Shown piece after piece: positions 16,246-30,648 of a stretch of 64,000 nucleotides of DNA (positions within the stretch are counted from its first letter, which is position 1; each line of letters starts with the position of its first letter). The DNA comes from Planctomycetaceae bacterium (GTDB lineage Bacteria > Planctomycetota > Planctomycetia > Planctomycetales > Planctomycetaceae). The notes under the pieces were generated by a model that saw nothing but the letters and a program-made list of their open reading frames with translations, made no database searches and was not told the origin of the DNA. A program made the position numbers and the translations under genes. Location: contig JAKFUF010000077.1 of NCBI GenBank assembly GCA_021732845.1, positions 1 to 64,000 on the forward strand. Direction: 5' to 3'.

Positions 16246-18768
16246 ATGCTTCCGCGCCCGTTGGCACAGTGCCGCCAGTCTGGTTGTTGCCCGCGCTGGT
16301 GCGTGCTGCTGTTCTTGGTGGCGGGATGCTGGTGCGTCACTGGCTGCGGCGGCGACAATTCGCTGCAGCCACCGCTTTTGGCAGAGGGTGGTTCCACCCT
16401 GCCCTTCGACATCAAATCTCCCGGCAACCCCGGCTATGTGGGTTGGAAAGCCTGCGGGGAGTGTCACGCGGCGCGGGTCAAAGAATTCCAGCAGACGCGG
16501 CACTTCCAAGCCCTGGTCTTGACGGAGGAGGCAACGCTGCCGCGTGGCTTTCAGGCCGGCGCGAACATTTTCCAGCCGCCACGTGCCGCGGTGCGGTTCG
16601 AAATGGCGCTGGCCCCGAAGCCGACCGTCAAGGTCGTGCCGCAGCCTCCGGGGGCAGGTCCGTCCACCGCGCCCATCGACTTCATCTATGGGTCCGGGGC
16701 CGGAACGGATGAAGTCTATTTCACGCGCCATGATCGTGAGCTGTTTGAACTGCCGGTCGTCTGGTTGTCACAGCAGGATTGTTGGGGAACCAGCCTGCTC
16801 AATCCGCATGTGACGGGCGACCGTTCACGACCGTTGTCTCCCCAATGCCTCGAGTGCCACACGGTCTGGGTCGACTATCAGCGGGGCTCGCTGAACGAGT
16901 ATGGCCCGCTTGAGCCACAGTTGCTGGGAGTGACCTGCGAACGATGCCACGGGCCGGCCGAAACACATGTCGCCTGGCATCGTGGTCATCCAGCGGCAAA
17001 AGCCGGCACTGAAGAGCCGCCAGCGGAGGACATTGTGCGACCGAACCGGCTGAGCCGCGAACGGCTGATGGATTTGTGCGCGCAGTGCCATACCAACACC
17101 GTGCGTCACCGCCGCCCGCCGTTCAGCTACCGCCCTGGAGAAGTGCTCGAAGAGTCTTTTCATGTGCTGGAAATGAAGTATCCCGAGCAAAACCGGGTCG
17201 CCAATCAGGTCCAGGGGCTGAAGGAGAGCCGCTGCTACCAGCAGACTGAAACGCTGACATGCATCACCTGCCACGATCCGCATCACGTGCCGAACCGCAC
17301 GAATCCCAGTGAGCGAGGAACCCCGACAGCGGATGAAGCAGGCGGCGCAAGCCGCCCATCCGCGCCAGGGGTTCCGCAGCGAGCAAAACTGACCAGCGAG
17401 CGAGGAACCCCGACAGCGGATGAAGGCGGCGCAAGCCGCCCATCCGCGCCAGGGGTTCCGCAGCGAGCAAAACTGACCAGCGAGCGAGGAACCCCGACAG
17501 CGGATGAAGAAGGCGGCGCAAGCCGCCCATCCGCGCCAGGGGTTCCGGAGCGAGCAAAACTGACCCGCGAGCGAGGAACCCCGACAGCGGATGAAGCAGG
17601 CGGCGCAAGCCGCCCATCCGCGCCAGGGGTTCCGCAGCGAACAAGGCTTGCCAGTGCTTCAAACCAATCCTGCAAGACGTGCCATCAACCACAGGCGTGC
17701 GGCGCACGCGAGCGGTTGCCAGAGCCGGTCCGCGACCAGTGTGCCACATGCCACATGCCAAAGCGGAACAAGGTCCAGGTGAACTTCGAGACCGCCGATG
17801 GCGGCATTAAGTTTCCCGCCCCACGCTACGAACACCGCATTGCCATCTATCCCGAAGCGGAGCGCGAGGCGATGCATGAATGGCATCGCGGGCAGGAGAC
17901 CGCGGAATCAACGGAGCAGTTGCGGCAACTGGGTCATGCACTGCAGGACCATTGGAGGCAGGCGGGAGTGGCCGCCCAGGCCGACCAGCGCTGGATCGTG
18001 GCAATTGACGCCTATCGGTCCGCACTGCGATTTGGTGAAGTGGACGAGGTTCGCACACGACTTGCCGACGTGACGCGGAATTATAAGGAGTCCAACCGGC
18101 TGTGGTTCGAAGGCAGCCACCAGAAGCAGACGCGGCAATTGCAGGAAGCGATCGGCACATTCCAATCGCTGTTGGAACTTGAGCCAAAGTCGGCAAGAGT
18201 TCATTACGAACTGGGAACGCTGTACGCCGCCATCGACCGGCGGCCGCTGGCACGGAAGCACCTGGAATTGGCCGGACAGCTTGACCTCAACGACCCCGGC
18301 GCGGAGGTGATGCTGGGGTGGCTCGATTTTTTAGAGGGCAATCCAGCATCGGCGTCAAAGCACTACCAGACTGCGCAAACGATTGAGCCTTGGAGCGAGC
18401 GGATCGAATGGATGCTCGGCCGCTGCCTGGCGAAGACCGGCCGCTGGGAGGAGTCCGTCACAGCGTTCCAACGGGCCCTCACCATCGACCCACACTTTGC
18501 GGACGCGGCCACCGAACTGCGGGCCGTCCTGCGGGAACGCCTGACTCCCGCCGCAGCCCTTCCCCATGCCGTGGAGGGGGTGAAAGCCACCTTGGGCGAG
18601 GATCTCGGACTGCTCCTGGCCCTGGCGGAAATCTACCGCGATCTGGACCGATTGCCGGAAGCCCGCCGCACAGTTGACTTTGCCAAAAAGCGAGCCCGGG
18701 AAAAAAAATCGGAACTTCTCACACAGATCGAAGCCTTGGAGGCTTCGATCCTCGAAATCCACAAATGA
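16246..18768 (+). CDS. Seven-haem cytochrome c fused to TPRs, with in-frame repeat insert
   Basis: The 840-residue exported protein has a hydrophobic signal with Cys-rich LVAGCWCVTGC, possibly a lipobox. Seven CxxCH haem sites begin at C70, C201, C231, C278, C339, C476 and C499 (CGECH, CLECH, CERCH, CAQCH, CITCH, CKTCH, CATCH). From about residue 560 to the end the chain is helical TPR sequence (for example HYELGTLYAAIDRRPLARKH). Such cytochrome-TPR fusions are common in planctomycetes and are presumed to carry electrons in the periplasm. Between haems 5 and 6, residues 356-469 are encoded by four tandem copies of a dispersed palindromic repeat, all in frame. Without them the loop would be short. 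The next genes downstream are on the same strand. Confidence 0.9.
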   Translation: MLPRPLAQCRQSGCCPRWCVLLFLVAGCWCVTGCGGDNSLQPPLLAEGGSTLPFDIKSPGNPGYVGWKACGECHAARVKEFQQTRHFQALVLTEEATLPRGFQAGANIFQPPRAAVRFEMALAPKPTVKVVPQPPGAGPSTAPIDFIYGSGAGTDEVYFTRHDRELFELPVVWLSQQDCWGTSLLNPHVTGDRSRPLSPQCLECHTVWVDYQRGSLNEYGPLEPQLLGVTCERCHGPAETHVAWHRGHPAAKAGTEEPPAEDIVRPNRLSRERLMDLCAQCHTNTVRHRRPPFSYRPGEVLEESFHVLEMKYPEQNRVANQVQGLKESRCYQQTETLTCITCHDPHHVPNRTNPSERGTPTADEAGGASRPSAPGVPQRAKLTSERGTPTADEGGASRPSAPGVPQRAKLTSERGTPTADEEGGASRPSAPGVPERAKLTRERGTPTADEAGGASRPSAPGVPQRTRLASASNQSCKTCHQPQACGARERLPEPVRDQCATCHMPKRNKVQVNFETADGGIKFPAPRYEHRIAIYPEAEREAMHEWHRGQETAESTEQLRQLGHALQDHWRQAGVAAQADQRWIVAIDAYRSALRFGEVDEVRTRLADVTRNYKESNRLWFEGSHQKQTRQLQEAIGTFQSLLELEPKSARVHYELGTLYAAIDRRPLARKHLELAGQLDLNDPGAEVMLGWLDFLEGNPASASKHYQTAQTIEPWSERIEWMLGRCLAKTGRWEESVTAFQRALTIDPHFADAATELRAVLRERLTPAAALPHAVEGVKATLGEDLGLLLALAEIYRDLDRLPEARRTVDFAKKRAREKKSELLTQIEALEASILEIHK
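17311..17652. repeat. Four tandem copies of palindromic repeat family C inside the cytochrome gene
   Basis: Copies start at 17311, 17398, 17482 and 17569 (spacing 87, 84 and 87 bp, all multiples of three). Each unit is a hairpin: GGAACCCC pairs with GGGGTTCC, GCGGATG with CATCCGC, and GGCGGC with GCCGCC around a GCAA loop. In copy 1 these lie at 17317-17324, 17330-17336, 17341-17346, 17351-17356 and 17368-17375. The unit is flanked by GAGCGAG on both sides. It is translated as ERGTPTADEAGGASRPSAPG and on. A fifth copy is intergenic at 30563-30648. Confidence 0.95.
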
Positions 18769-28065: not shown

Positions 28066-30564
28066 ATGGGATTTCGCATGCGCCATGGGCTCTCCACCCT
28101 GATGCTGGCCATCGGCCTGCTGGCATCTTGCGTTTCCCCGGCGTGGGCACAACCTGCCAACCCGCCACAACCGGCTCAGCCGGCTGAAGCCCCGGCGGAG
28201 GCCGAAGAGCGTGATGGCGAGCAGCGCGACCTGCCGCTGAAGGCCGATTTGCAGGTGCCGACGACCCAGGAGCTGTTGCAGGGTCCGGCCTTCGACCGCA
28301 TTGTCCTGCGGGCGGACCGTGTCATCATCAGCGAACCGGTCAACCCGCGCCCGGGCACGCTGGAGCAGATGAACGCCAAGATCAAGGCGGCCTTGAAGAA
28401 CAAGCCGTTCAACGAAACCGCCGAACAGGTGGCCGAGCGGCAAAAGCTGTATCAACTGCGGCTCACACTGCTCAATGAAAAAGAGGGGGTCGAGTACAGC
28501 CTCAATATTGAACTCGTCAAGGAGATCATCCACTTCGAAGATCTCTACCTGCAGCGAATCGACATTCTGCTCGGGGTGGGTGATGTCGCCGGTGCCCAGC
28601 AGTTGCTGATCGCCCTGGATGCGCGGCACAAGGGCTGGCCCGGTTGGACCGAGCGGCAGCGGCGGCTGATCTGGGTGGAAGCCGATCAGAAGCTGAAACA
28701 GGGTCTGCCCGAGCATGCGCTGACACTGCTGGAGGAGCTTCACGCCGTTGAACCGAAGTACCCCGAACTCTTCAATCGTCTGGGGAAGGTGACCGACGAA
28801 TTGATTTCGACAGCCCTGCAGTGGAACGACTATCGGTGCGCACGGCATTTCATCAGCCGCCTGCAGGCCCGCGAGCCGTCGCACAGCGTGGCTCAGCGGC
28901 GCAGCGACGAACTGTTGGCAATGACCCGCGAAGCCCTGAAACTTTCCGCGGGCTTGGAAGCGAAGGGAGAGTTCTCTGCCGCCGTGGATGAGATGGAGCG
29001 CGGGGCGGCCATCTGGCCAGCCACCCCGGAACTCAAGTCCGCCCATTCGCGGCTTTGCAACCGCTGGCAGCGGCTGCACGTGGGTGTTGTTGCGCTGGAG
29101 ACATCTCCGGCGCCAGCCGGCGGCGCGGGGGAGGGGCCAGCAGCAGCGGGCGATGCAACAGCGCCAGCGCCCGGAGTCGCACAGTCCCAGTCAGAGTTTG
29201 ATCAACCAGAGGCCCTTCGTCGCGTGCGATGGTTGACAGAGCGGCGGTTTTTTCGCCCAGACCGCACCGGGGTCAAAACCATCCGCTATGAATCTCCATT
29301 TCTTCAAGAGTGGGAACCGACCGAATTGGGGCACAGCGTCCGGCTGACAATGCAACTCCAGCGGAAAAGCTGGGAATCTCGGCCGATGCTGACATCTGGG
29401 GAGGTGGCAGCCGCCTTGCGATCCCGGCTTGACCCCCGCCATGCGGACTTCGATGAGCGGATGGCAGCCATTGTCGAGTCCATTGGCGTGCGCACGCCGG
29501 GGGAATTTGAAGTCCGGTTTCGCACCGTGCCGTTGCGTCCAGAGGCCCTGTTTTCCTTTTCTGTCGGCGAGCAGGCGGGAACGACCAGCCCGTTTCATCG
29601 GGTGAAAATCGACGAACAACAGGCGGTGTATCACCGGACCTTCGCGGAGCCGCCAGCTCCCGCCGACTGGCATTTGGCGGAGGTGGTGGAGGTCAAATAC
29701 CAGAATCACGACAAGGCCATTCAGGGCCTCCTTCGCGGCGAAGTATCCCTGCTCTCGCAGGTCCCTGCCTGGAATGTTCCCGCACTGCAGAAGCAGGCCG
29801 ATCTGCTGGTCGACCGCTACGCACTGCCACGAACTCACTTTCTTCAGTTTCATCCCAACTCCAAGGCAGCCACCAGCCGGACGCTGCGGCGGGCACTGAT
29901 CTACGCCCTTGACCGCTCACGAATGCTGAATGAGCTGTTTCTGCACGACCCCGCCAGCCGCCATGGCCGGCTGACCTCGGCCCCCATGCCCACGCAAAGC
30001 TACGCCTACAGCCCGTCGGTGCTTCCGCACAAGTATGACCCCGTGCTGGCCGTCTCCCTGATGGTTGCGGCCAACAAGGAATTCGGCAAAGCGCTGCCGG
30101 GTCTGACACTGATGGTCCCGGAAGAGCCCGCTCTCCAGCAAGCGGCAGCGCAGATCGTTGACAGTTGGAAGCGGCTGGGACTGAAAGTGACCGTGGTTCC
30201 GCCGACAACCACGACCTGGGATGTGGCCTACCGCACCTGCAGCCTGGCCGAACCGCTGGTCGAACTTTGGCCGTGCCTGACTCAGCCGGCCGGCACCAAG
30301 GTGGAAGCCTTGCGGAATGTCCCCCCGTGGCTCCGTGAACAGTTGCTGCAACTCGACTCCGCCAGCGACTGGCCCACCGCCGAAAGCCTGCTGTTCCGCA
30401 TTCACCGTCAGCTTTGGGCGGATGTCCAAAACATTCCGCTCTGGGAACTGGACCAGGTGTACGCCGCGCGGAAGATCATCAAGGGGATGCCCAGCCGACC
30501 ACTTGAGACCTACGCGGACTGCGAACGCTGGAAAATCGACCCTTGGTATCCGAAGGACCAGTGA
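28066..30564 (+). CDS. Orphan ABC-type solute-binding protein (SBP_bac_5-like) with long N-terminal extension
   Basis: The 832-residue exported protein has a signal LSTLMLAIGLLASCVSPAWA; ATG 28066 or 28078 is possible. The first ~380 residues are helical, TPR-like and Pro/Ala-rich with no clear family. From about residue 385 a family 5 binding-protein pattern appears: RRVRWLTERRFFRP, ALIYALDRSRMLNELFLH, SYAYSPSVLPHKYDPVLA, VDSWKRLGLKVTVVPP, and a C-terminal IHRQLWADVQNIPLWELDQV. That family normally binds peptides or nickel for an ABC importer, but no permease or ATPase is adjacent. A scaffold or sensor role is possible. Its stop codon TGA lies within the first bases of the family C repeat at 30563. 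Confidence 0.75.
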   Translation: MGFRMRHGLSTLMLAIGLLASCVSPAWAQPANPPQPAQPAEAPAEAEERDGEQRDLPLKADLQVPTTQELLQGPAFDRIVLRADRVIISEPVNPRPGTLEQMNAKIKAALKNKPFNETAEQVAERQKLYQLRLTLLNEKEGVEYSLNIELVKEIIHFEDLYLQRIDILLGVGDVAGAQQLLIALDARHKGWPGWTERQRRLIWVEADQKLKQGLPEHALTLLEELHAVEPKYPELFNRLGKVTDELISTALQWNDYRCARHFISRLQAREPSHSVAQRRSDELLAMTREALKLSAGLEAKGEFSAAVDEMERGAAIWPATPELKSAHSRLCNRWQRLHVGVVALETSPAPAGGAGEGPAAAGDATAPAPGVAQSQSEFDQPEALRRVRWLTERRFFRPDRTGVKTIRYESPFLQEWEPTELGHSVRLTMQLQRKSWESRPMLTSGEVAAALRSRLDPRHADFDERMAAIVESIGVRTPGEFEVRFRTVPLRPEALFSFSVGEQAGTTSPFHRVKIDEQQAVYHRTFAEPPAPADWHLAEVVEVKYQNHDKAIQGLLRGEVSLLSQVPAWNVPALQKQADLLVDRYALPRTHFLQFHPNSKAATSRTLRRALIYALDRSRMLNELFLHDPASRHGRLTSAPMPTQSYAYSPSVLPHKYDPVLAVSLMVAANKEFGKALPGLTLMVPEEPALQQAAAQIVDSWKRLGLKVTVVPPTTTTWDVAYRTCSLAEPLVELWPCLTQPAGTKVEALRNVPPWLREQLLQLDSASDWPTAESLLFRIHRQLWADVQNIPLWELDQVYAARKIIKGMPSRPLETYADCERWKIDPWYPKDQ

Positions 30565-30648
30565 GCGAGGAACCCCGACAGCGGAGGAAGCAGGTGGCGC
30601 AAGCCACCGCATCCGCGCTAGGGGTTCCAGAGCGAGCAAGACTTACCA
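30563..30648. repeat. Palindromic repeat family C, intergenic copy
   Basis: This single copy has GGAACCCC (30569-30576) pairing with GGGGTTCC (30621-30628), GCGGA with TCCGC, and GGTGGC (30593-30598) pairing with GCCACC (30603-30608) around GCAA. Relative to the four cytochrome copies, the inner stem changed on both sides (GGCGGC/GCCGCC to GGTGGC/GCCACC), a compensatory change. The G and A of its first GAGCGAG also serve as the end of the upstream gene's TGA stop. Confidence 0.92.

Follow-up and report, generated by a model that had tools for sequence, protein, structure and literature searches.

The hairpin repeat at 30.6 kb of the window (the 64,000-nucleotide stretch of Planctomycetaceae DNA that was analysed) belongs to family C, a palindromic unit of about 87 nt. 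A covariance search of fetched loci finds that the genome has at least 174 copies of it, distributed over 83 loci. Family C is a new family of REP-like palindromes, of a kind already known. With somewhat more confidence than doubt, it is best explained as a non-autonomous, lineage-restricted, untagged mobile palindrome whose hairpin is kept through spreading. Copy number, arrays, single orientation, lineage restriction and insertion sites argue for a mobile element. The distribution of changes over the stems points to the process that keeps the fold.

Anatomy and copies of the family C unit

The consensus unit is CAGTGAGCGA-GGAACCCC-GACA-GCGGATG-AAGAA-GGTGGC-GCAA-GCCACC-CATCCGC-GCCA-GGGGTTCC-GCAGCGAGCAAAACTTAC, made up of a 59-nt hairpin with three stems (from GGAACCCC to GGGGTTCC) and a 28-nt tail. 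The left end and the outer stem are nearly invariant; the loop is variable. The first census, by BLAST, contained 93 copies, and the covariance model R1 was then built from 80. Searched with R1, the whole genome contains at least 150 copies, while the fetched loci gave 177 matches, of which 174 were used. Of the 83 loci, 42 hold a single copy and the rest hold arrays of two to eight, all arranged head to tail; mixed orientation was found at none of the 83, so that the inverted doublets of REPINs and BIMEs are absent. The 174 copies extracted exceed the figure of 100 short palindromes per genome used as a criterion for REPs. The tetranucleotide GT[AG]G is not present at the 5' foot of the hairpin, which is GCGA. 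Lacking both this foot and the inverted doublets, family C is not a canonical REP or REPIN.

The family appears to be confined to this genome. When up to one mismatch is allowed, a 16-nt motif from the left end has 179 sites here and a reversed control pattern has one; the genomes of other members of the bacterial family contain zero to two sites each. R1 gave no matches when 296 further genomes from the class were searched, under stricter filters with which weak matches are lost. Neither DNA comparison, nor the 16-nt pattern, nor the covariance model revealed a relative outside this genome. A 32-nt match in another genome (G032) was rejected because there is no hairpin there, and a search of viral contigs for an exact match to family C found none. 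Two loci depart from the general pattern. On contig C67 (L146, 6087–6491), three copies are spaced at 159 nt and not at about 87, which shows that extra sequence is present in some arrays. Contig C135 (L156, 1–238) carries a more distantly related hairpin repeat, scoring 43 bits to R1, in two copies placed in tandem, possibly a sister family.

The window contains five family C units, all on the forward strand, in or next to two genes:

16246..18768, + strand: multihaem cytochrome/TPR protein of 840 amino acids (ORF; Pfam Cytochrome_C554, Paired_CXXCH_1, TPR)
17307..17393, + strand: family C unit 1 of 4, in frame in the cytochrome ORF (R1 113.9 bits, sequence)
17394..17477, + strand: family C unit 2 of 4 (R1 104.5 bits; 84 nt, bulge one codon shorter)
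17478..17564, + strand: family C unit 3 of 4 (R1 112.9 bits)
17565..17651, + strand: family C unit 4 of 4 (R1 106.4 bits)
28066..30564, + strand: SBP_bac_5/TPR protein (ORF, Pfam; TGA stop at 30562–30564)
30559..30646, + strand: family C unit, single copy (R1 97.3 bits, folds, sequence): left end CAGTGAGCGA, hairpin 30569–30628, then linker
30569–30576/30621–30628: outer stem, 8 bp, GGAACCCC/GGGGTTCC
30581–30587/30610–30616: middle stem, broken at 30586, with an extra G at 30609
30593–30598/30603–30608: apical stem, with loop GCAA at 30599–30602

The intergenic copy at 30.6 kb shares its outer stem with the cytochrome copies base for base, as the earlier note had stated. In the apical hairpin (30593–30608), it reads GGTGGC-GCAA-GCCACC; each of the four units within the cytochrome gene reads GGCGGC-GCAA-GCCGCC. 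The two-sided change described in the earlier note is thus real and amounts to one base pair, T30595–A30606 in place of C–G. The GCAA loop is likewise kept between these copies, but not throughout the family, where it occurs at 49 of the 83 loci; a GCA triloop or a different loop is found at many of the remaining ones. That all differences preserve pairing is incorrect: in the middle stem, the consensus GCGGATG/CATCCGC has become GCGGAGG (T to G at 30586), which breaks a pair, and there is an extra G at 30609; the copy refolds with a bulge. The hairpin is nevertheless far more stable than shuffled sequences, with z-scores of -6.6 as RNA and -5.5 as DNA, the latter for both strands. CAGTGA, the first six bases of the element (30559–30564), includes the stop codon at which the SBP_bac_5 gene upstream ends, and the insertion may therefore have set the carboxy-terminus of this protein.

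Changes in the stems and where selection acts

Two-sided changes were seen at the apical pair only in the first alignment (80 sequences) and at five pairs in a model-fitted alignment of 150 copies, four of which turn out to be single events when counted by locus. As the five pairs are present only in the model-fitted alignment, our conclusions are based on counts per locus in an independent alignment made with MAFFT. By locus, the states of the apical pair are T–A 34, C–G 28, G·A 19, T·G 10, C·A 8 and A–T 1. Taking one copy per locus, T or C on one side is coupled to A or G on the other with a median Fisher p of 5e-8, so the covariation for which the earlier note proposed to test the genome copies is found, family-wide, at the very pair it cited. 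Outside this pair, four loci carry double changes, all of which keep pairing; the expectation from shuffling is 1.8 double changes in total (P=0.094) and 0.83 in which pairing is kept (P=0.0074). Shared ancestry is not completely accounted for in these figures. The broader claim, that compensatory changes show selection for a structure, is not borne out, since it depends on essentially one pair out of 21, and about 25% of the copies are unpaired there. The change between T–A and C–G is a family-wide dimorphism with T·G and C·A intermediates and does not point to a function at 30.6 kb.

Four or five hairpin backgrounds that are otherwise identical carry more than one apical state, and several of them hold both T–A and C–G. 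This probably reflects either repeated switching of the pair or the exchange of short tracts among units. Such a pattern might have a mutational origin: template switching, or quasipalindrome correction, would copy one arm onto the other, so that a change on one side comes to be present on both. Hairpins are reportedly created and maintained by template switching (PMC8794818), and the mixed backgrounds, together with the clustering of changes at a single pair near the loop, with T·G, C·A and G·A intermediates, fit this explanation. We nonetheless regard it as doubtful, given that G·A mismatches persist uncorrected in 19 of the 83 loci and that the other stems contain few corrections.

More can be learned when changes are divided into those present at two or more loci, which have spread (or recurred), and those private to one locus, which mostly arose after insertion. 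Shared changes number 1.5 per stem column, leaving out the apical pair, against 9.1 per unpaired hairpin column, while private changes number 0.67 and 0.65, respectively. Counted over the whole unit, the 42 stem columns hold 28 private alleles and the 45 other columns hold 27 (p=0.79), and of the one-sided private changes in stems, 20 break pairing and 4 keep it. The depletion of private, pairing-breaking changes in stems that a structured RNA acting in place should exhibit is thus not seen, and selection for structure is not visible at the resident sites. As shared changes avoid the stems and private ones do not, the fold seems to be kept via propagation, with residents decaying neutrally; the simplest reading of the sequences is that only foldable copies spread, by which the hairpin would be retained, and that copies drift once resident. 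Unpaired stem changes at the neutral rate, the observation that the earlier note thought would speak against its proposal, are accordingly what the resident copies display; the spreading lineage does not. In this way, the argument that compensatory changes imply function becomes a testable split between shared and private changes, pointing here to selection on spreading instead of a local role, and one that could be applied to other REP-like families.

The same counts bear on two further explanations. If the hairpin had a role in transcripts, be it in mRNA stability, in termination or as a structured RNA, the pairs would be selected at the RNA level. The very stable fold and the GNRA-type loop would suit such a role, which we consider very improbable: the loop is variable, private changes are not depleted in the stems, the repeat is translated in frame inside the cytochrome, no Rfam family was matched in the window and no terminator-like site was found at 30.4–30.9 kb, where the tail after the hairpin is GCAGCGAGCAAAAC, with no run of T. 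Alternatively, conservation of the stems could reflect recognition of a sequence and not of a fold, which would count against a mobile element. REPs are reported to bind host proteins of this sort (PMC6006769, PMC2817692), examples being IHF and gyrase on BIMEs, and the near-invariance of the left end and outer stem would be expected of a double-stranded site of this type; the strong two-sided coupling at one pair would not, and private changes are equally common in the conserved stem columns and elsewhere. A double-stranded protein site as the main explanation strikes us as most improbable.

Insertion sites and boundaries

Insertion of whole units can be followed in two genes. The four units in the cytochrome gene, with hairpins spanning 17317–17633, add about 115 residues to the protein at a place where a CxxCH haem motif lies on either side; the added residues are SERGTPTADEAGGASRPSAPGVPQRAKLT repeats. 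The array is missing from 13 orthologues at the protein level and also from the aligned DNA of one locus (L238), making this a clear example of how such a repeat has entered a conserved cytochrome gene without disrupting the reading frame. Four of the six frames of the tandem consensus 87-mer are free of stop codons, so that in-frame insertion is tolerated. On contig C4, a unit is located inside an IS200-like gene, of which a 90%-identical paralogue on contig C233 does not have the unit. The two genes differ by 88 bp, with no evident target duplication and a one-base ambiguity at the junction.

Over the 83 loci, sequence information drops sharply beyond the left end of the unit and fades at the right over a pentamer that resembles C[A]G[T]G. 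The unit itself starts with C[A/C]G[T/C]G, and the same pentamer tends to follow it. The single copies show no sign of a target-site duplication, their left and right pentamers being identical at 10 loci against 9.1 expected (P=0.40). When all loci are taken, arrays included, the pentamers match slightly above chance (P=0.0008), so a target duplication may be involved.

If family C is a mobile palindrome, the unit would spread whole and accumulate singly or as head-to-tail arrays. We infer that a Y1 (HUH) transposase, of the TnpA_REP/IS200 type and acting in trans, would cut and rejoin the folded single strand. An inserted unit may bring with it a copy of its own target pentamer, as the left pentamer resembles the preferred target, and serial insertion would then lead to head-to-tail arrays. 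Such arrays could also grow by unequal recombination, which would weaken the case for mobility. It is also conceivable, although unlikely, that family C is a distinct type of palindromic element moving as a single strand, in which insertion rebuilds the target, arrays form by repeated transposition, coding sequences are entered and the enzyme is a class 3 TnpA_Y1; in that case, a length of 29 codons with four open frames would be what allows arrays to enter coding genes.

Known repeat systems and candidate enzymes

Untagged palindromic families, the REP-like stem-loop repeats, have been described (PMC3733652). Like these, family C consists of short, high-copy, lineage-specific palindromes with no conserved GTAG/CGTC end motif; it differs in its 87-nt unit with three stacked stems, its strictly head-to-tail arrangement and its insertion in coding sequence. 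For REPINs, compensatory substitutions on the two sides of the hairpin have been reported, as have tandem clusters that take in the flanks (PMC3116915), and with REPs and REPINs mobilised by RAYTs (PMC3116915, PMC8266576) family C shares the hairpin required by the proposed single-strand route. However, it has no GTAG foot, inverted doublets or adjacent cognate RAYT. As in non-autonomous derivatives of IS200/IS605, no locus-specific target duplication is seen among the single copies and a target-like pentamer is present at the boundary, but the family C unit is a single hairpin and does not have separate left and right end hairpins.

A RAYT or Y1 transposase gene elsewhere in the genome, for which the earlier note advised looking, is present many times over. 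Five matches to Y1_Tnp and fifteen to the REP-transposase model (RAYT-like) were found, in at least 15 loci. That a RAYT moves family C as it does a REP is consistent with these genes, but the GTAG foot, the REPIN doublets and an intact RAYT within roughly 0.5–1.5 kb of the loci are all missing. A RAYT profile scan of the flanks of the fetched family C loci (about 0.5 to several kb, in an assembly of 262 contigs) found no intact RAYT. The only match, on contig C12, is a decayed canonical RAYT relic about 200 nt from one family C copy and near two. Its position is not significant, about 0.7 such matches near family C being expected by chance. RAYTs are present in 69 of 81 sampled members of the bacterial family, many bracketed by repeats, and the canonical RAYTs of relatives are accompanied by GTAG-type repeats.

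Class 3 TnpA_Y1 genes are known from Planctomycetes, with atypical structures that do not contain GT[AG]G (PMC6006769), and one class 3-like gene, in which H-x-H and Y....Q are conserved, is present in this genome. The class 3 foot CnGA is loosely present in family C, as CCGA two bases before the middle stem. However, the sequence that family C has in common with the array of the class 3 gene in its own genome does not go beyond chance: the shared motif CGGTGAGCGAGGA was rejected as evidence of a partner, being a 13-nt match where shuffled sequences reach a maximum of 14. Repeats of the AGCGAGG type flank the class 3 genes found in relatives, where this motif is enriched to 0.61 per kb, against 0.15, and since the match to the array lies within that of shuffles, this enrichment is a lead only. 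An R1 search near the class 3 genes of relatives gave no match.

Several Y1/RAYT genes in this genome (G000) have repeat arrays of their own, so that a number of pairings of Y1 enzyme and repeat stand side by side in one planctomycete. The RAYT genes at L112, L113 and L003 (contigs C58, C63 and C57) are flanked by arrays of the palindrome GAGTCACGGAGTGACTCG, and the proteins from C58 and C63 are identical as translated. At L111 (C53:34500–38500), a RAYT gene is located between long arrays of a different repeat family, with a period of 99/100 nt on both sides, while the Y1/RAYT gene on C189 is flanked by an inverted pair of repeats. At L005 (C215, 1402–1908 and 1920–2210), the class 3-like gene is located beside a tandem array containing GGTGAGCGAGGATCGACCC. 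Finally, L085, L086, L087 and L089 (contigs C39, C26, C26 and C5) encode multicopy Y1-like proteins of 380–480 amino acids, with near-identical amino-terminal and diverging carboxy-terminal parts.
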